A DNA stretch of 52,772 nt. It comes from Alphaproteobacteria bacterium. Its GTDB lineage: Bacteria; Pseudomonadota; Alphaproteobacteria; Rs-D84. The stretch spans positions 1 to 52,772 of the forward strand of contig SUUQ01000008.1 of NCBI GenBank assembly GCA_015062445.1, read 5' to 3'. Position numbers and translations under genes: made by a program. The notes beneath the pieces are model-generated. The model saw nothing but the letters and a program-made list of their open reading frames with translations. It was not told the origin of the DNA and ran no database searches. Below, one piece after another: positions 44,808-52,772 of this stretch. Every line of letters begins with the position of its first letter. The stretch's first letter is position 1.

Positions 44808-45722
44808 ATGAATGATGTCATCGCCGAATTTATCAAATACTTGGGCGGGGTAAAAAAATACTCGGCCCATACGGTGGTGGCATATGAAACAGATATTCAT
44901 GATTTTATTACCTTCTTGGAAAACTTTAATGGCAGTGCCCCCCTGCCCCGCGACTTGGAAAATGTCGACACAATCGCATTTCGATCATTCTTGGCAGACC
45001 GACAAAGACGGGGATTAACATACAAATCAACTGCACGAACACTGTCTGCAGTGCGGGGCTTTTACAGATTTCTGGGACAATGCCATGGCATAAAAAACGA
45101 TGCGATTGGATTGATTTCTGCACCACGGGTGCCACGAAAATTGTCCAAGGCAATCGATCCGATTGATGTTGAAAAAATGCACGATGCAACCCGGTTAATT
45201 GACCATGCAGAACCGTGGATTGCCGCACGAAACTGGGCATTGGTGGTGGTACTGTTTGGGTGTGGATTGCGAATATCCGAAGCGCTGAACATAAAAAATC
45301 GTGATGTAATGGGGCACCCACAGGTTTTGCGTATCGTTGGCAAGGGAAATAAAGAACGACTGATTCCAGTTTTAGCGGCAGTATGGGATGCAGTTGATAA
45401 ATATATTCAGGTGCGACCATTCGGAAATGAACCAGACGACAACCTGTTTCGCAGTGTGCGGGGATTGCCAATGACTGCACGGATGGCAGAAAAAGTTATT
45501 GAAAATTTGCGGCATTATCTGCAACTGCCAGACTATGTGACACCGCACGCATTGCGACACACATTTGCAACAGCACTGTTGGCAGGCGGGGCCGATTTGC
45601 GCAGTTTACAAGAGTTATTGGGGCATTCTTCGTTGGCAACAACACAGTTGTATACAAAAATTAACATGGCGGAAATCTCGAACATCTATGCCACGGCGCA
45701 TCCACGCGCAAAAGATAAATAA
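44808..45722 (+). CDS. xerC: Tyrosine recombinase XerC/XerD
   Basis: 304 residues. SAM-like N-terminal domain (residues 1-90) and a catalytic domain with Arg in GCGLRISEAL (about 145), Lys in IVGKGNKERL, HALRHTFATAL (His and Arg), LGHSSLATTQLYT (His and the Tyr nucleophile). Size and motifs fit the chromosomal dimer-resolution recombinases acting at dif. C versus D cannot be decided with certainty here; the short terminal part favours XerC. Last gene of the trpS-SIMPL-xerC run. Confidence 0.9.
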   Translation: MNDVIAEFIKYLGGVKKYSAHTVVAYETDIHDFITFLENFNGSAPLPRDLENVDTIAFRSFLADRQRRGLTYKSTARTLSAVRGFYRFLGQCHGIKNDAIGLISAPRVPRKLSKAIDPIDVEKMHDATRLIDHAEPWIAARNWALVVVLFGCGLRISEALNIKNRDVMGHPQVLRIVGKGNKERLIPVLAAVWDAVDKYIQVRPFGNEPDDNLFRSVRGLPMTARMAEKVIENLRHYLQLPDYVTPHALRHTFATALLAGGADLRSLQELLGHSSLATTQLYTKINMAEISNIYATAHPRAKDK

Positions 45723-45806
45723 CCATATCGGGGGAAAACGCAATATAACTGTGTGGTGCACGACATGTCACAACCATTGGGTGGGCAAAATTTTTGTATT
45801 TCCTGC

Positions 45807-45836
45807 TTGCATAACTGGTGGTAAATTTTCTATCCT
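45807..45836 (+). promoter_or_regulatory. Possible promoter of the giant Cys-rich gene
   Basis: TTGCAT (45807-45812), 18 bases, TATCCT (45831-45836), 23 bases before the start codon at 45859. The ribosome site is GAGAGGAAG. Confidence 0.4.
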
Positions 45837-45858
45837 GTGTGGCATAAGAGAGGAAGTG

Positions 45859-48800
45859 ATGAATATATTTCGCAAAATAATGCGGTTTTTTGCGATTTTT
45901 GTTCTTGTATGTAGTATATCACCGGCATCCGCATTTGTTGGCACATCCTGTACAAGCGACACCCAATGTGCAGCTGATGAGGTTTGTGATTTAAACCTTA
46001 TGACGTGCCAGAAAAACATAACATCATCGGAATGTATTGGATGTACGTCCGATCTTGATTGCATAGGTGGCAAGGTATGTAATAGCATGGGATGTTGCGT
46101 AACATCATCAGATTTAGACGATCCGCAATGTCTGTCATGCCTGGAGGATAATTATTGCCCAGATGGTTACATATGTAATTCAAGTACGGGATGTTGCGAA
46201 GAGGGGCTGGTGGAATTATGTAATTGTGCATCGGTTGGATACGATGGTGTTTGTTTTGGCAAGGATTACAGTACATGTTATAATTCGTGTACCCGTGCAT
46301 GTACGCAAAGCGGGTGCCCCAATGGATACAGTTGCACATATAATTCATCATCTACATCTGGGACACAATATTATGGCGGGTCGTGCGATGCCGCCGCCAG
46401 TACATGTACAATCGCATCACAGACATGTACAACACATTGTAATACCAAATCAAACACAGCTGTTCAAAATTCATCAACAGAAACAGAAAGTGGTCTGTCC
46501 TGCAGCCAGGGATGCAGTACATCGTGCAGCACATCATGCAGCGAAACATGTAGCACATCGTGTTCGCAAACATGCAGTTCTTCATGTTCTTATGCCTGTA
46601 ACGTAAATGAAACGTGCCCAACAGGATATAACTGTACGTGGGATACCACAAAAACATACCCGGGCACAATGTATGGAATACAGTACGGTACACAATACGG
46701 AACCAAATACGGCACAAAAACTGGCACAAAATATGGTACCCAGTATGGCACATATTCCCGCAGTCGCACAAAGTATACAGTCTGTAATGGGGTGTATACC
46801 GATGGATGCTATTCTGCGGACAGTACATCTTGTTCAGGATGTTCCAGAACAACAACAACGTACAGCGATTGGTCAAATGGCGCATGCGGCAGTTATGGTG
46901 CGTGTACAGATTTTGGCGCATGTGGTAGTTATGGTGCATGTGGCAATTTTGGTGCATGCGGCAGTTATGGTTCTTGTACAAACTTTGGTTCCTGTGGTAG
47001 TTATGGTTCATGCCAATACAGCGGCACAGCAACCTGTCCAATCAAGACACAAACATGTAAAGAAGCATGTACATCGGTCGCAAATCGCGAAACACGCAGC
47101 GGGACAGAATCGTGTACCCGTTCGTGCAGCATTTCAAATGGCACATGTTCATACAGCGGTTCAACCCGTACATATACCGATACATGTGCCAGCAATTATA
47201 CCACTGGTGGTTGTAAATCGGCGGGTGCGTCATGTTCGGGATGTAATTCATGGTCACGCACCAGTACTGGCACCTGTTCTGGTGGAACAATCAGCATCAC
47301 ATGCAGTACAGGTTTTCATCTGGACACAAATTCGTGCGTTATTAATACATATACTGTTGCGTATAACGCAAATGGCGGTTCAGGAACGACCGCTGGAACT
47401 GCACATGAATACAATAAAAAATCAAACCTGCGGGCAAATGGATTTACGCGTACAGACCATGCATTCGTTGGCTGGGCAACATCGTCAACGGGAAATGCAG
47501 TGTATTCTGACCAAGCAGAAATACTGAATTTAACTGCCACACATGGCGCAACTGTTACGCTGTACGCAGTATGGCAAAAATGTACTGCATGTGCCGCAGG
47601 TACAGGGGCAACATGTGTACTGGGGGTGAAAAATGGCGAATGTTCGTATACAACATCGTGCCTGCCAGGATATAATACCATTACAAATAACGGAAAACCA
47701 AATCCGTCTTGTAAAGCGAATACATACACTGTGGCATACAACAGCAATAAACCCAGCAACGCATCTGGCACAATCAGTGGCAGTACCGCAGACAGTAATC
47801 ATACTTACGATGTGGCAAAAAAACTGACAAAAAATGGATACGGATTGACCGGGTGGACGTTCGCAGGTTGGAATTTGCAACCAAATGGAACAGGAACATC
47901 ATACAGCAATGAACAAAGTGTATCTAACCTGACAACAACAGACGGCGGAACTGTCACACTGTATTCAATGTGGACCGCAAATAAATTTACAGTGACGTTT
48001 AATGCCAATGGCGCAACCAGTGGCGCTGCAAATCCAGCCACTGTACAATGTACCTATGATTCTGCATGCGCGGCAGCTGACCAGGGGACAATGCTGAAAA
48101 CCAACAGCGTGCTTACAGGATGGAATACAAATACTGGGGGAACAGGTACAAATTATGCCGCAGGGGCCAGTATCAAAAATATCAGCACGGCAGCAAATGT
48201 GACACTGTATGCAAAATGGAGTGCATGCACCGCATGCGCACCAGGAACAGGGGCGACATGTTCGTTAAGTGTGTCCAATAATAAATGTACGTATGCAACA
48301 TCCTGTAAAACCGGGTACAATACAATTGTAAACAATGGTAAATATAACCCATCGTGCAGCGCAAACAACTATACTGTGGCATATAATGCAAATGGCGGGG
48401 TCGGCAAAACTGCATCCAGCAGCCATGCGTATAATGCTGCAAAAGCACTGACTGCAAATGGTTTTTCACGCACAGGATACACCTTTACAGGGTGGGCGAC
48501 ATCGGCAACAGGTAATGCAGTGTACTCTGACACGGAAAATGTCACTAATCTGACCACGACAAATGGGGGGACATTTACACTGTATGCGGTTTGGTCTGTT
48601 AATTCGTATTCGTGTTCGGCGGGCTCATATCTGGATGGTGTAAACTGTGTGGAATGCGAAACAGGTCACTGGTGCCCAGGTGGTACATGGGTATATAATG
48701 CCGATATCCAAGGACGAAATTCGTGCCCAGCAAACTCGACCAGTGCGGCTGGGTCTGATGCACGGGCGGATTGTTCGTGCAATGCAGGATATGGCGGTGA

Positions 48801-48933
48801 TGCCGCAACAGGTGAATGCTTGATATGCGTGCCAGGAACGTACAAGACAGATGTTGCCAACACGGCATGTTCAATATGTACAGATGACCATTACTGTACA
48901 GGTGGAACAAATGGGAACTATATACAATGCTAA
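45859..48933 (+). CDS. Giant Cys-rich secreted repeat protein, 5' part, interrupted by transposon
   Basis: 1024 codons are left; the last seven (GNYIQC and stop) come from the transposon end. A signal peptide (MNIFRKIMRFFAIFVLVCSISPASA) is followed by several Cys-rich modules: C-x-S-D-x-x-C-type knots (residues 30-130), a 4-residue Cys-Ser repeat (46501-46599), YGT repeats (46672-46752), 6-residue GACGSY-type repeats (46879-47013), then four Listeria/Bacteroides-type repeats starting near 47349, 47725, 47987 and 48370 (AYNANGG...FTGWAT...LYAVW), and the first 198-bp tandem unit. Probably a surface or secreted protein. The gene continues at 52454. Confidence 0.85.
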   Translation: MNIFRKIMRFFAIFVLVCSISPASAFVGTSCTSDTQCAADEVCDLNLMTCQKNITSSECIGCTSDLDCIGGKVCNSMGCCVTSSDLDDPQCLSCLEDNYCPDGYICNSSTGCCEEGLVELCNCASVGYDGVCFGKDYSTCYNSCTRACTQSGCPNGYSCTYNSSSTSGTQYYGGSCDAAASTCTIASQTCTTHCNTKSNTAVQNSSTETESGLSCSQGCSTSCSTSCSETCSTSCSQTCSSSCSYACNVNETCPTGYNCTWDTTKTYPGTMYGIQYGTQYGTKYGTKTGTKYGTQYGTYSRSRTKYTVCNGVYTDGCYSADSTSCSGCSRTTTTYSDWSNGACGSYGACTDFGACGSYGACGNFGACGSYGSCTNFGSCGSYGSCQYSGTATCPIKTQTCKEACTSVANRETRSGTESCTRSCSISNGTCSYSGSTRTYTDTCASNYTTGGCKSAGASCSGCNSWSRTSTGTCSGGTISITCSTGFHLDTNSCVINTYTVAYNANGGSGTTAGTAHEYNKKSNLRANGFTRTDHAFVGWATSSTGNAVYSDQAEILNLTATHGATVTLYAVWQKCTACAAGTGATCVLGVKNGECSYTTSCLPGYNTITNNGKPNPSCKANTYTVAYNSNKPSNASGTISGSTADSNHTYDVAKKLTKNGYGLTGWTFAGWNLQPNGTGTSYSNEQSVSNLTTTDGGTVTLYSMWTANKFTVTFNANGATSGAANPATVQCTYDSACAAADQGTMLKTNSVLTGWNTNTGGTGTNYAAGASIKNISTAANVTLYAKWSACTACAPGTGATCSLSVSNNKCTYATSCKTGYNTIVNNGKYNPSCSANNYTVAYNANGGVGKTASSSHAYNAAKALTANGFSRTGYTFTGWATSATGNAVYSDTENVTNLTTTNGGTFTLYAVWSVNSYSCSAGSYLDGVNCVECETGHWCPGGTWVYNADIQGRNSCPANSTSAAGSDARADCSCNAGYGGDAATGECLICVPGTYKTDVANTACSICTDDHYCTGGTNGNYIQC
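46501..47013. repeat. Three in-frame coding microrepeat arrays
   Basis: 46501-46599: 12-bp units encoding Cys-Ser-x-Ser/Thr. 46672-46752: 12-bp units encoding Tyr-Gly-Thr-x. 46879-47013: 18-bp units encoding Gly-Ala-Cys-Gly-Ser-Tyr and variants with Thr-Asp-Phe or Asn-Phe. All stay in frame, so length variation would not break the protein. Confidence 0.85.
48905..48912. repeat. Target-site duplication, left copy
   Basis: GAACAAAT directly before the left terminal inverted repeat; identical to 52446-52453. Eight bases is the size expected for the IS1595 family. Confidence 0.95.
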
Positions 48934-48936
48934 CCA
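48913..48936 (+). repeat. Left terminal inverted repeat
   Basis: 24 bp, perfect complement of 52422-52445. It contains a TGC-TAA that ends the interrupted host ORF. Confidence 0.95.
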
Positions 48937-49183
48937 GAAAGAATCAAACAAATAGTTTAGATGAATTTATGCGGATGGCGGATGACATGTGCCCAATAAA
49001 TCCAATTATAAAATATAAAAATATACTGATTAACAAATTGAAAAAAATTATCAGCATATTCTTTTTTTCGTTATATTATTGGATTTGCTTGTCAAAAAAA
49101 GACCGTCTAACACTCAAAAAAGGCGACGGAATACGTATCGTATCACCTGTTTATTTTGTAAAACAAACAGTTGTCCAAGATGT

Positions 49184-49417
49184 TTATTTAGAAACACGAG
49201 AGCCATAAATTCGTCCCAATTTTTGAACCTCTTCATCATCTGTTTTTGCACACAACCCCATCCAGTCCATAACTTTTACGCGAAAAATTTTTAGTTTTCG
49301 TCCGTCGGTTATATGAACAATAATAGTTCCGTGTTTATCATCGTCATAATTGCTTATGTATTCCGCATAGGTAAATGAGCGGGACTTTATAAATTTGATT
49401 GTTCTAAAAGCGACCAT
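49184..49417 (-). CDS. Small hypothetical cargo protein
   Basis: 77 residues from ATG 49417, chosen because GGAAG lies 4-8 bases upstream (AAAGGAAGCACA); the longer frame to 49477 lacks a ribosome site. Sequence MVAFRTIKFIKSRSFTYAEYISNY... with a beta-rich centre (GTIIVHITDGRKLKIFRVKVMDW). Basic, soluble, no family recognised. Opposite in orientation to the other cargo genes. Confidence 0.5.
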   Translation of the reverse strand: MVAFRTIKFIKSRSFTYAEYISNYDDDKHGTIIVHITDGRKLKIFRVKVMDWMGLCAKTDDEEVQKLGRIYGSRVSK

Positions 49418-49521
49418 TGTGCTTCCTTTGTTTATTACATTACAAATACCCCCATCAAAAATGATTTGACAGGGCAACCAACGCAGAGTAATATGGCCGA
49501 CGTGGGTGGCGCACTATACAA

Positions 49522-49546
49522 TGCGTTTCAGGCGTGATTTTTCACG
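49522..49546 (+). terminator. Intrinsic terminator-like hairpin upstream of the transposase
   Basis: AGGCGTGA and TCACGCCT around a T-rich loop, followed by TTTTTTG. It could insulate the transposase from transcription entering from the host gene. The rest of 49418-49626 shows nothing else identifiable. Confidence 0.7.
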
Positions 49547-49626
49547 CCTTTTTTGTTTATAGGCGATTTATATTTTGAAAACAACCGATTCCTTGCGGGA
49601 ATTGTTAAATAATTTAATAAAAATAC

Positions 49627-49654
49627 TTGACTAACCACAAATGTTTACTATAAT
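49627..49654 (+). promoter_or_regulatory. Transposase promoter
   Basis: TTGACT (49627-49632), 16 bases, TATAAT (49649-49654). A leader of about 20 bases reaches the ribosome site AAAGGA and the TTG start at 49681. Confidence 0.65.
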
Positions 49655-49680
49655 TCATACAAATAACAAAGGAATAATAG

Positions 49681-50607
49681 TTGTCTGATAATTTTAGTTT
49701 GATTAAATTTTTCAAAGAATACCCAGACGAAGAATCCGCGGTACGGTACTTTGAACGCATGCGTTGGGGGGACGAGGTTGTTTGTCCATTTTGCGGCAAA
49801 ACCCACATTTCAGAAATGAAAAATCACACCCCCATGAAATACCGCTGTCGGGATTGTCGCAAGTTTTTCAGCGTTCGCACCGGCACAGTATTAACCGAAT
49901 CCAAATTGCCATTACAGAAATGGTTGCTGGCAATTTACATCCTGACAAACACAACCAAGGGCGTAAGTTCAATCCAGTTGGCAAAATATCTGGACACAAC
50001 ACAAAAGACCGCGTGGTTTTTGGGGCATCGCATCCGCGAAACATGGTCGCAGGGTTCGCATAAATTGTATGGCGTGGTTGAGGTAGACGAAACCTATATC
50101 GGGGGCAAGGAAACCAATAAACACAATTCCAAGAAAAGAAAAGCGGGCCGCGGTGCGGTTGGTAAAACACCCGTTGTTGGCGCAGTATCACGCGACGGTG
50201 GGGTCAAGGCATTTGTGGTACAGGAAACAAACGCCCGAACACTGGAAACCGTTATTGCTGACAACGTTGATCCAACCGCCACACTGTACACAGACCAACA
50301 TGGTGGCTATCAGAAAATGGGACGCATGTATGACCACCATATTGTCAATCATTCGGTGCGAGAATTTGTAAAAGGCGCGGTTTATACCAACGGCATTGAA
50401 TCATTTTGGGCGATTTTGAAACGCGGCTATTATGGTATTTATCATTCATGGTCGGTTAAACACCTGCAAAGATACGTCAATGAGTTCGCAATTCGTGCGA
50501 ATATGAAAAACGTTTCACAAACGCAAAAAATCATGATAACATTTGCACGTGGATTAAATACCCGCCTGTCGTACAAGGAGTTAATCAATGCCAAGAAAAA
50601 TGACTAG
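49681..50607 (+). CDS. IS1595-family (ISXO2-like) transposase
   Basis: 308 residues from a TTG start with AAAGGAATAATAG upstream; the rare start may limit expression. An N-terminal zinc ribbon (CPFCGKTHISEMKN...CRDC, about residues 38-62) binds the ends. The DDE/N catalytic core has VEVDETYIGGK (Asp about 135), TLYTDQHGGY (Asp about 203) and YTNGIESFWAILKRGYYGIYH, matching the third acidic/Asn position of this family. No frameshift; complete. Its 3' end overlaps the next small ORF. Confidence 0.95.
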   Translation: MSDNFSLIKFFKEYPDEESAVRYFERMRWGDEVVCPFCGKTHISEMKNHTPMKYRCRDCRKFFSVRTGTVLTESKLPLQKWLLAIYILTNTTKGVSSIQLAKYLDTTQKTAWFLGHRIRETWSQGSHKLYGVVEVDETYIGGKETNKHNSKKRKAGRGAVGKTPVVGAVSRDGGVKAFVVQETNARTLETVIADNVDPTATLYTDQHGGYQKMGRMYDHHIVNHSVREFVKGAVYTNGIESFWAILKRGYYGIYHSWSVKHLQRYVNEFAIRANMKNVSQTQKIMITFARGLNTRLSYKELINAKKND

Positions 50608-50710
50608 GATTATTCAACCTATATCCGCATCCATGGCGGACGTGGCCCGAATGTTGGTGCAACCACAACAGCAACAAAAACAATGTACAAAAAACAAAAA
50701 AACCGCCTGA
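50588..50710 (+). CDS. 40-codon ORF overlapping the transposase stop
   Basis: Begins ATG 50588 inside the transposase gene (20-base overlap, different frame), behind a consensus ribosome site AAGGAGTTAATCA. Sequence MPRKMTRIIQPISASMADVARM..., ending in a Gln/Lys-rich tail. Its stop lies inside a terminator stem. Overlap and good ribosome site suggest coupled translation; it might modulate transposition. No relatives recognised. Confidence 0.45.
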   Translation: MPRKMTRIIQPISASMADVARMLVQPQQQQKQCTKNKKTA

Positions 50711-50727
50711 TATTTGGGCGGTTTTTA
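50699..50727 (+). terminator. Intrinsic terminator of the transposase operon
   Basis: CCGCC (50703-50707) with GGCGG (50717-50721 region), preceded by A-rich and followed by T-rich sequence. Confidence 0.85.
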
Positions 50728-50772
50728 TATTTTTGTATTGATTTTTTTGTCCAAATTGTCTATACATGCAAA

Positions 50773-50872
50773 CAGGGTCGGATAGTCCGACCCTGCAATG
50801 TACAATATAACTAATAAAGCGTTAGTTATTGTACATTGCCCCGTTTAACTTGTCAAGCGTTTTCCGCTTGAC
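50773..50872. repeat. Three consecutive hairpins in the transposon cargo region
   Basis: Hairpin A: CAGGGTCGGA/TCCGACCCTG, 10-bp perfect, 3-base loop (50773-50795). Hairpin B: 18 paired bases (GCAATGTACAATA..., 50795-50839) with a 2-base bulge and 7-base loop. Hairpin C: GTCAAGCG/CGCTTGAC (50852-50872), flanked by CCCCG and CGGGG that can extend it, then a T-run to 50886 giving a terminator form. Together they precede the micro-ORF at 50916. Confidence 0.85.
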
Positions 50873-50915
50873 GGGGGTGTTTTTTGCACCCTAAAAGAGA
50901 GTAAAGGAGGGTAAT

Positions 50916-50966
50916 ATGAGACGGATTAAAATTCGTATCCGTGGCAAAATCAAAGTATTAAGATAA
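50916..50966 (+). CDS. 16-residue basic micro-ORF
   Basis: MRRIKIRIRGKIKVLR, eight of sixteen residues Arg or Lys, alternating with Ile/Val/Leu. The ribosome site AAAGGAGGGTAAT is as strong as any in the window. It lies after a terminator-type hairpin and 17 bases before another (50984-51001). This arrangement resembles a leader peptide/attenuator, but the peptide itself could be a cationic effector or toxin. Too short for family assignment. Confidence 0.45.
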   Translation: MRRIKIRIRGKIKVLR

Positions 50967-50983
50967 TACGCCGCGAATACAGA

Positions 50984-51005
50984 CCGCCCCGATTGGGGCG
51001 GTTTT
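50984..51005 (+). terminator. Terminator between micro-ORF and methylase
   Basis: CCGCCCC (50984-50990) pairs with GGGGCGG (50995-51001) around GATT, followed by TTTTC. Confidence 0.8.
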
Positions 51006-51020
51006 CTGATTAAAAATAAA

Positions 51021-51049
51021 TTGGAAATGTGAATAAAATGATTTATAAT
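51021..51049 (+). promoter_or_regulatory. Promoter of the GIY-YIG-methylase gene
   Basis: TTGGAA (51021-51026), exactly 17 bases, TATAAT (51044-51049). Transcription start near 51056; the leader is only about 23 bases, with AAAGG upstream of ATG 51079. Confidence 0.7.
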
Positions 51050-51078
51050 ATCCGCGTGTAAAAAACAAAGGCAAAACG

Positions 51079-52404
51079 ATGTCTGATTTGACAAATTCAG
51101 AATTTTGTACCCCCGCCGCCACGGGTACGCGGCGGCAGTACCTGTACATTGTACAATCATCGCTTGAACCCGCAAAATGCAAGATTGGCATAACCGATAA
51201 TCTGGACCGCCGATTGCGTGAATACAACGCCACAACTGGACAATCCAAAGACAACATTTATTCATATCTATTTACCTGCGAAGTTAAAAACATGCGGGAA
51301 ATAGAAAATGATATAAAGCATAATTTTCCCCACCTGCGTGAACAGGCAAGTCGTGAAATCTATTTTTACAATGCTGCACTGTTTGACATGTATATCAGTT
51401 TTATAAAGTCCCATCCGCATTTTCGGCGTGAAATCTTTATGAAACCTGACGAGAAAAAACAGGTGATCAAGATTGTAAAAAAGACCACGCCCACCCTGCG
51501 GGAACGCGGTCTGTCCCGTAAAGACGTTATGCAACGGGCGAAAAATATCAACAATGACGAATTTTACACCCGATATGCGGACGTGGAAAAAGAAATTGAA
51601 ATGTATCCGGTGGAAATCTGGCGGGACAAGTGCGTGTTCTGTAATTGCGATGATGCGGTTGGTGAAACCCGCACAGAAAAAGATTCATCGGCATTTGCCC
51701 TGTATTTTATCAAGAACTTTGTGCGCCTGGGGCTGCGTAAGTTGATATGCACACATTACAGCGGGCAAATGGACTTATTTCAGGCGGGGGCAAAGGGGTA
51801 TATATTCACCAAAGAGGGCGTGCGGGAAATGACCACCGCGCCCAAAGGGTACACCGGATGTTTTGAGGACCCGCTGTCGTTAAAGATTTTGAACGAGGAA
51901 GCGGATATAGTCTGCACCAACCCGCCGTTTTCACGTGCGCGGGATTATTGGCGTGTTGTGATAAACAGCGGTAAAAAGTTTTTGATTATTTCAAATGAAT
52001 CAAATTGTGTGAACACGGCATTTATACCGTATTTTATGAACGGCCAAGTATGGGCAGGCTACAATCGTGTTTATACATATTTGAATCCCAAACGTGAAAT
52101 CGTGCGTGCGGCGGGGCGTTGGTACACCAATTTGCCCGTTAAAGACCGTCCAACAAGCCGGAATTTGAAATTTGTGCCGTTGGATGAAATCCCAGAGCGG
52201 TTCAAGAAATATGACGATGCTGGGACATTGTGTACGGACAACTGTTATATCCCCGCGGATTATGATGGACCATTTGCGGTATCGGCAGCCCCGATATTAA
52301 ACGGAATATTGGAAAAGGGGTATAAGATAGTTCAGGACAAGAAATACGTGCCGTATTTTAACGGACGTGAAGCATTTGCCCGCATCCTTGTCCAGAAAGT
52401 GTAA
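51079..52404 (+). CDS. GIY-YIG nuclease fused to EcoRI-type adenine-N6 methylase
   Basis: 441 residues. Residues 19-115 form a T5orf172/GIY-YIG domain: QYLYIVQSS, then CKIGITDNLDRRLREYN with the catalytic-type Arg, and a downstream Glu/Tyr region (REQASREIYFYN). Residues about 150-440 match the M.EcoRI family: NNDEFYTRYADVEKEIEMYP, FIKNFVRLGLRKLICTHY and the catalytic ADIVCTNPPFSRARDYW (NPPF at 281-284). M.EcoRI itself is about 326 residues and has no such N-terminus. The fusion could be a one-protein restriction-modification or a methylase with a DNA-targeting module. It ends 18 bases before the right transposon end and has its own promoter. Confidence 0.85.
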   Translation: MSDLTNSEFCTPAATGTRRQYLYIVQSSLEPAKCKIGITDNLDRRLREYNATTGQSKDNIYSYLFTCEVKNMREIENDIKHNFPHLREQASREIYFYNAALFDMYISFIKSHPHFRREIFMKPDEKKQVIKIVKKTTPTLRERGLSRKDVMQRAKNINNDEFYTRYADVEKEIEMYPVEIWRDKCVFCNCDDAVGETRTEKDSSAFALYFIKNFVRLGLRKLICTHYSGQMDLFQAGAKGYIFTKEGVREMTTAPKGYTGCFEDPLSLKILNEEADIVCTNPPFSRARDYWRVVINSGKKFLIISNESNCVNTAFIPYFMNGQVWAGYNRVYTYLNPKREIVRAAGRWYTNLPVKDRPTSRNLKFVPLDEIPERFKKYDDAGTLCTDNCYIPADYDGPFAVSAAPILNGILEKGYKIVQDKKYVPYFNGREAFARILVQKV

Positions 52405-52421
52405 CCACGGGGACTATTCAA

Positions 52422-52445
52422 TGGTTAGCATTGTATATAGTTCCC
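52422..52445 (-). repeat. Right terminal inverted repeat
   Basis: 24 bp, perfect complement of the left end at 48913-48936. Confidence 0.95.
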
Positions 52446-52453
52446 GAACAAAT
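52446..52453. repeat. Target-site duplication, right copy
   Basis: GAACAAAT, identical to 48905-48912, directly after the right inverted repeat. Confidence 0.95.
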
Positions 52454-52772
52454 CGTACTGCGTGTCCAGCAAACTCCACCAGTGCGGCTGGGTCTGATGC
52501 ACGGGCGGATTGTTCGTGCAATGCAGGATATGGTGGCGATGCCGCAACAGGTGAATGCTTGATATGTGTGCCAGGTACATACAAGACAGATGTTGCCAAC
52601 ACGGCATGTTCAATATGTACAGATGACCATTACTGTACAGGTGGAACAAATCGTACTGCGTGTCCAGCAAACTCGACCAGTGCGGCTGGGTCTGATGCAC
52701 GGGCGGATTGTTCGTGCAATGCAGGATATGGCGGTGATGCGGCAACAGGTGAATGCTTGATATGCGTGCCAG
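52454..52772 (+). pseudogene. Giant Cys-rich secreted protein, 3' part cut off by the transposon
   Basis: The frame reads RTACPANSTSAAGSDARADC... and is open to the end of the window, so the true stop lies outside. It continues codon 1018 of the gene at 45859 exactly when the transposon and one target copy are removed. It encodes Cys-rich 66-residue repeats (CNAGYGGDAATGECLICVPG, then TDDHYCTGGTN). Detached from its signal peptide and start, it should not be expressed as a secreted protein unless the element excises. Confidence 0.9.
52454..52772. repeat. 198-bp coding tandem repeats
   Basis: Units start at 52454 and 52652 (198 bases, 66 codons), nearly identical. An earlier unit with its first Cys codon at 48724 falls in the same phase once the transposon is removed (48724, then 52463, then 52661). 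The array continues past the window end. Confidence 0.92.

Follow-up and report, generated by a model that had tools for sequence, protein, structure and literature searches.

We found in the window a transposon of the IS1595 family that carries a passenger (a "tIS"), a gene in which a GIY-YIG (T5orf172) domain is fused to an adenine methyltransferase of the EcoRI type; by the window we mean the whole 52,772-nucleotide stretch of contig SUUQ01000008.1 analyzed here (Alphaproteobacteria bacterium, assembly GCA_015062445.1). The reading that we favor, with a probability of roughly 60%, is that the gene encodes a transposon-borne, single-chain restriction-modification (RM) enzyme of a Type IIC/IIG-like kind, whose relatives phase-vary.

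A transposon with a fused passenger gene

The complete element (48913–52445) has terminal inverted repeats (TIRs) that enclose the transposase and the fused gene (Table 1). It thus shows the marks of a tIS: an IS1595 transposase, TIRs, an 8-bp target duplication, and a passenger between the ends. Its insertion target was the gene of a long Cys-rich repeat protein with List_Bact_rpt repeats, and when the flanks are joined and one copy of the target-site duplication is removed, the result is an intact repeat unit at 52643. The interrupted gene is very long and spans 45565–48930 and 52446–52772, and nearly identical repeats of 147 nt (93%) flank the element on either side. In the window's genome the TIR pattern occurs only at these two ends and the transposase has one copy, so the element is single-copy there.

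Table 1. Features of the transposon and its cargo gene in the window
Feature	Coordinates	Strand	Details
Target-site duplication, left copy, 8 bp, GAACAAAT	48905..48912	.	Read directly
Left TIR, GGGAACTATATACAATGCTAACCA	48913..48936	+	24/24 complementary to right end
IS1595-family DDE transposase, 308 aa	49681..50607	+	PF12762 2.5e-42, PF12760 6e-13, NF033547 204.9 bits
Cargo gene, GIY-YIG (T5orf172)–EcoRI-type adenine methyltransferase fusion	51079..52404	+	441 aa, ATG start
C5 run at relatives' tract site	51110..51114	+	C5 or C8 in frame; C4, C6, C7 not
GIY-YIG domain, residues 20–118	51136..51432	+	T5orf172 match, model, fold matches, residue conservation
EcoRI-type adenine methyltransferase domain, residues 151–403	51529..52287	+	PF13651 135.7 bits
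Right TIR	52422..52445	-	Perfect 24-bp pair with left end
Target-site duplication, right copy, GAACAAAT	52446..52453	.	Read directly

Several smaller features lie within the element. At its left, about 740 bp (48937–49680) are absent from the shorter elements L019 and L020 described below; this part has two small ORFs, of 93 and 97 aa, for which Pfam gave no match. Between the transposase and the methylase gene are a perfect 13-bp inverted repeat (50795–50839), a 16-codon Arg/Lys-rich ORF (MRRIKIRIRGKIKVLR, 50916–50966) behind a strong Shine–Dalgarno-like AAAGGAGGG, and a terminator-like hairpin (about 50980–51010). A search of the element against Rfam gave no match.

Two elements of the same type carry the fused gene elsewhere. 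The one in an Opitutales genome (L019; 2864 bp) has the same TIR, imperfect at the right end, and an 8-bp target-site duplication, AATTATAA; the one in a Fibrobacteraceae genome (L020; 2841 bp) has the same TIR and no target duplication. Their transposases are 59%–62% identical to that of the window. When the window-type TIR was sought around the other relatives, in 22 genomes, it turned up only in these two and in a further element that shares the L019 genome, and no IS1595 transposase lay close to the remaining relatives. The domain order was found beside other transposases in L019 and L020, most relatives lacking such a neighbor.

The second element of that Opitutales genome (G060), L166:1169–4687, is an IS1595 element whose TIR starts in the same way and which has a target-site duplication, ATAAATTT. 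Its cargo genes are an EcoRI-type methylase that is not fused (447 bits), preceded by a G10 tract whose frame would be restored at G8 or G11, and a GmrSD_N-HNH endonuclease; together they look like a two-gene RM system that is probably phase-variable. Its methylase has no GIY-YIG domain, and a separate nuclease gene is accordingly supplied in that element. This one genome thus holds a natural matched pair, one element with fused cargo and one with two-gene cargo. Two viral contigs also have same-TIR IS1595 elements: L165:1422–4004, with a P63C-domain protein, a PemK-type toxin, and the target-site duplication TATTTAAT, and L164:1823–3892, whose 356-aa protein had no Pfam match. Since elements with the same TIR carry different cargo, this transposon type swaps its cargo.

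Two domains in one conserved chain

The ORF at 51079–52404 was confirmed exactly. An earlier note on this DNA had placed a T5orf172 domain and an M.EcoRI-like half with an NPPF motif in one 441-residue protein, and both domains scored well above the curated Pfam cut-offs (EcoRI_methylase, PF13651, 3e-39, cut-off 26.4 bits; T5orf172, residues 20–90, 5.1e-9, 37 bits, cut-off 20). PADLOC also called the 441-aa protein a Type II methyltransferase (MTase_II, 4.8e-38). The NPPF motif (residues 281–284, at 51919–51930) and a CNCDD motif are invariant across 16 sequences. The fusion is not a chance join, because 15 homologs (63%–80% identity) share the domain order from end to end and a wider set fills a 30-row tree. 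With nuclease-type and methylase domains in one polypeptide, the protein has the arrangement that defines Type IIC/IIG enzymes.

Unfused EcoRI-type relatives are only about 30% identical to the methylase half, and EcoRI specificity is therefore not to be assumed for the putative target sequence. The window's genome holds a second, unfused EcoRI-type methylase (L002, G000:C5:104422–105204), 34% identical to the methylase half. Sequence searches with the whole protein and with the GIY-YIG domain alone found no solved structure.

The full-length fusion was modeled with only moderate confidence (pLDDT 72); the isolated N-terminal domain, modeled from 25 sequences, reached 87.8. Its best match among solved structures was Slx1 (Z 7.5, rmsd 2.9, 93 aligned residues), with At-HIGLE at Z 6.7 and UPF0213 proteins and UvrC below; unrelated structures formed a background at Z about 3–4, below the GIY-YIG nuclease matches. 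The catalytic Tyr/Arg/Glu that the earlier note had wished to see checked are present as candidates: Y23 and E76 are kept in 25/25 sequences and R45, which we take to be the catalytic arginine by its spacing relative to I-TevI and UvrC, in 24/25, the exception being R45H in L026. Y49 and N98 are further GIY-YIG positions that we noted. In place of YIG stands K35-I36-G37, with Lys replacing the tyrosine in all 25 sequences and KIS for KIG in L029 (G37S). Profile match, fold, and retained Tyr/Arg/Glu together place the domain in the GIY-YIG superfamily (T5orf172 branch).

Mean pairwise identity is 71.6% for the GIY-YIG half, 74.6% for the methylase core, and 64.1% for the C-terminal part. With Y23 and E76 unvarying, R45 almost so, and identity close to that of the methylase core, the alignment argues for selection acting on the GIY-YIG fold and its candidate catalytic positions, conservation in itself being no proof of cleavage.

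Distribution among gut bacteria

The fused protein was found at 18 loci in genomes from seven phyla; the names of several of these genomes point to rumen, cecum, or rectum. Full-length relatives (61%–81% identity) come from Pseudomonadota, Verrucomicrobiota, Fibrobacterota, Spirochaetota, Elusimicrobiota, Planctomycetota, and Bacteroidota, and more fused copies were seen in further Brachyspira genomes, in the orders of L033 and L027, and in the class of L023. The window's own order has two more members with the fused gene, one of which is L028 again; the genomes searched from its genus held no other fused copy. A spread over seven phyla, yet a single copy among the genus genomes searched, points to horizontal transfer. 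One IMG/VR contig carries a full-length relative (59% identity), phage and plasmid records had only unfused EcoRI-type methylases, and peptides of the N-terminal domain itself found no match in viral contigs.

In the 30-row tree, the window's copy groups with those of L018, L019, and L020 (support 97/94) in an inner order that is not resolved, so the tree is compatible with one capture by the transposon or with several.

We clustered all ORFs of at least 80 aa over 34 loci and found no conserved neighbor gene or nuclease, no cluster being common to more than a few of the loci; as far as adjacent genes show, the fused protein therefore seems self-sufficient. The sole synteny was between two Brachyspira species (L136 and L137), which share M23 peptidases, a TPR protein, and one unassigned protein. 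There the gene lies between M23-peptidase genes at one and the same chromosomal site and can thus become a resident gene. Elsewhere we noted degraded fused copies (L033, with the frame broken in the methylase part, and L138 on G093:C5, with stops and a broken frame) and genomes with three full-length paralogs each (G970, with L144, L145, L146, and additional fragments, and G073).

Repeat tracts that set the reading frame

Simple-sequence tracts implying phase variation in relatives had escaped the earlier note. In six of the 12 members of the window's clade, and in none of the 18 rows outside it, the stretch separating the upstream ATG from the first GIY-YIG strand holds a hypermutable tract immediately ahead of the domain. 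Long C/G or 4–7-mer tracts numbered only eight in 363,485 bases of loci and window, and six of these are the ones directly before the domain. The repeat units differ between members of this one clade: homopolymers C8 (L018), C14 (L019), G9 (L020), and G11 (L028), and the pentamers AGGAC×11 (L021, with no ordinary in-frame start codon upstream) and GGACA×4 (L023, at a contig edge that cuts the locus off within the tract).

At the assembled lengths, the only upstream ATG is out of frame in L018, L019, L020, and L028, and a one-base change restores a protein of 436–444 aa in each; the in-frame lengths are C6/C9, C12/C15, G8/G11, and G10/G13, respectively. A frame-setting tract in the 5' coding region, the hallmark of a phase-variable gene, is thus present in these four and in the L166 methylase. 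All five homopolymer tracts are OFF as assembled, which would happen by chance in about 13% of cases if frames were random and is not significant. The lengths were read from draft, mostly metagenomic assemblies, among which we found no pair of near-identical copies with differing tract lengths. Among unfused EcoRI-type methylases, some 40–50 were checked for such a tract, and the only one that had it was the IS1595-borne L166.

The window copy has no hypermutable tract, only C5 with the frame open, and on this pattern it is probably fixed ON, switching being a likely property of its lineage. Met72 is invariant in A1, and one may guess that, when the gene is OFF, translation could begin there and yield the methylase alone; the sequence ahead of it shows no clear ribosome-binding site.

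A proposed mechanism and its rivals

How might such an enzyme work? The EcoRI-type domain would place a methyl mark on adenine in target DNA, and DNA without that mark would be cut or nicked by the GIY-YIG domain at the N-terminus, with no partner gene needed. The gene would move among gut bacteria of different phyla, by this transposon or in other contexts, and slippage in the tract would turn the whole enzyme on or off. Switching should be safe for a one-chain enzyme, in which neither activity would be gained or lost without the other, an argument rather than an observation.

RM genes can harm a new, unmethylated host, and their establishment after transfer is an old question. We tentatively suggest, at somewhat less than even odds, that the cargo enters a naive genome OFF and later comes ON with balanced activities, since a single frameshift would silence both nuclease and methylase, and that the related IS1595 element uses the same device in two-gene form (methylase plus GmrSD-HNH). 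If true, a minimal transposon (about 2.8–3.5 kb) whose only clear cargo is a frame-switched nuclease-methylase would offer a simple answer, to arrive silent and switch later, and would link gut phasevarions to ordinary insertion-sequence traffic. Against the favored reading as a whole stand the many relatives without a tract, among them 18/18 sister-clade rows, the lack of a nearby transposase in most relatives, the short C5 of the window copy, the draft state of the assemblies behind the tracts, the pentamer loci L021 and L023, and the departures at GIY-YIG motif positions (R45H, G37S, and Lys for the YIG tyrosine).

The protein could instead be a solitary epigenetic methyltransferase, its GIY-YIG domain a non-cutting module for DNA binding or target recognition and its tracts a phasevarion-type regulator of expression. 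Phase-variable regulatory methylases are well documented (PMC7394358, PMC4525171), no partner nuclease is conserved at the loci, and the Lys in place of the YIG tyrosine, with R45H and G37S in single members, would suit a domain that does not cut. Against it, Y23 and E76 do not vary even among sequences with identities as low as about 58%, R45 hardly does, and the domain approaches the methylase core in conservation; the sister element, moreover, pairs its unfused methylase with a separate endonuclease. We regard this explanation as rather unlikely, though it deserves to be taken seriously. The recurring architecture, the (near) invariance of Y23, R45, and E76, and the lack of a conserved partner nuclease make a one-chain RM enzyme the best-supported reading. 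The compact RM enzyme of the earlier note has held up in this sense, as has its link to a transposon, the gene being IS1595 cargo.

An anti-restriction or DNA-protection methylase of mobile elements and prophages, hiding sites from the host's restriction enzymes and with a vestigial N-terminal domain, would fit the phage-like surroundings of two Brachyspira copies and one IMG/VR contig (L021, near a terminase; L036), and EcoRI-type methylases without the fusion are frequent on phages and plasmids. Against this, the GIY-YIG domain shows no decay in otherwise intact copies, and it is doubtful what an element in need of protection on entry would gain from random switching; we consider this role improbable. 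Lower still we place an accessory function in transposition, whether methylating transposon ends or hemimethylated DNA for timing, as had been proposed, or protecting the element. The gene does lie inside an element with a transposase, but most of its relatives are outside any such element, and same-TIR elements carry other cargo (P63C plus PemK-type in L165, a different protein in L164). GAATTC is also absent from the three elements, a weak point given that about three sites are expected at the window's rate. Nothing we found supports the proposal on transposon ends or timing, which we hold to be very improbable.

Comparison with known systems

A limited literature search found no description of IS1595 elements with methylase passengers or of the present combination. 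Among one-chain enzymes, the phase-variable Type IIG Cj0031c of Campylobacter jejuni (PMC4889913) likewise has endonuclease and adenine methylase in one gene whose expression is switched by simple-sequence tracts, as the tracts in relatives suggest here. The present protein differs in pairing GIY-YIG with an EcoRI-type methylase in 441 aa, in being small-transposon cargo, and in occurring in several phyla. One precedent in domain content is RM.Eco29kI (PMC3039593), made in the laboratory by fusing a GIY-YIG endonuclease to its methylase; its authors classed it as Type IIC and showed both activities. It too joins a GIY-YIG nuclease-type domain and a methylase in one chain; that fusion is artificial and uses the Eco29kI methylase, whereas ours is natural and has an EcoRI-type adenine methylase. 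With M.EcoRI-type methyltransferases (PF13651) the protein shares the methylase core and NPPF motif, differing in its extra N-terminal domain and its low identity to unfused members. The T5orf172/GIY-YIG protein YeeC is genetically linked to an adenine methylase in the DnmA-YeeB-YeeC system of Bacillus subtilis and relatives (PMC9973331), which consists of separate genes and includes a helicase, unlike the single chain with a different methylase described here.

Wandering methylases have been reported in gut Bacteroides (PMC10333322). Among transposons, the IS1595 tIS elements MTnSag1/tISSag10 and tISCpe8 carry passengers, that of tISCpe8 being a lincomycin-resistance gene (PMC5704250). The window's element resembles them in its IS1595-family transposase, TIRs of about 25 bp, target duplication, and passenger gene, and differs from the tIS elements named in that work in that its passenger is a DNA-modification gene.
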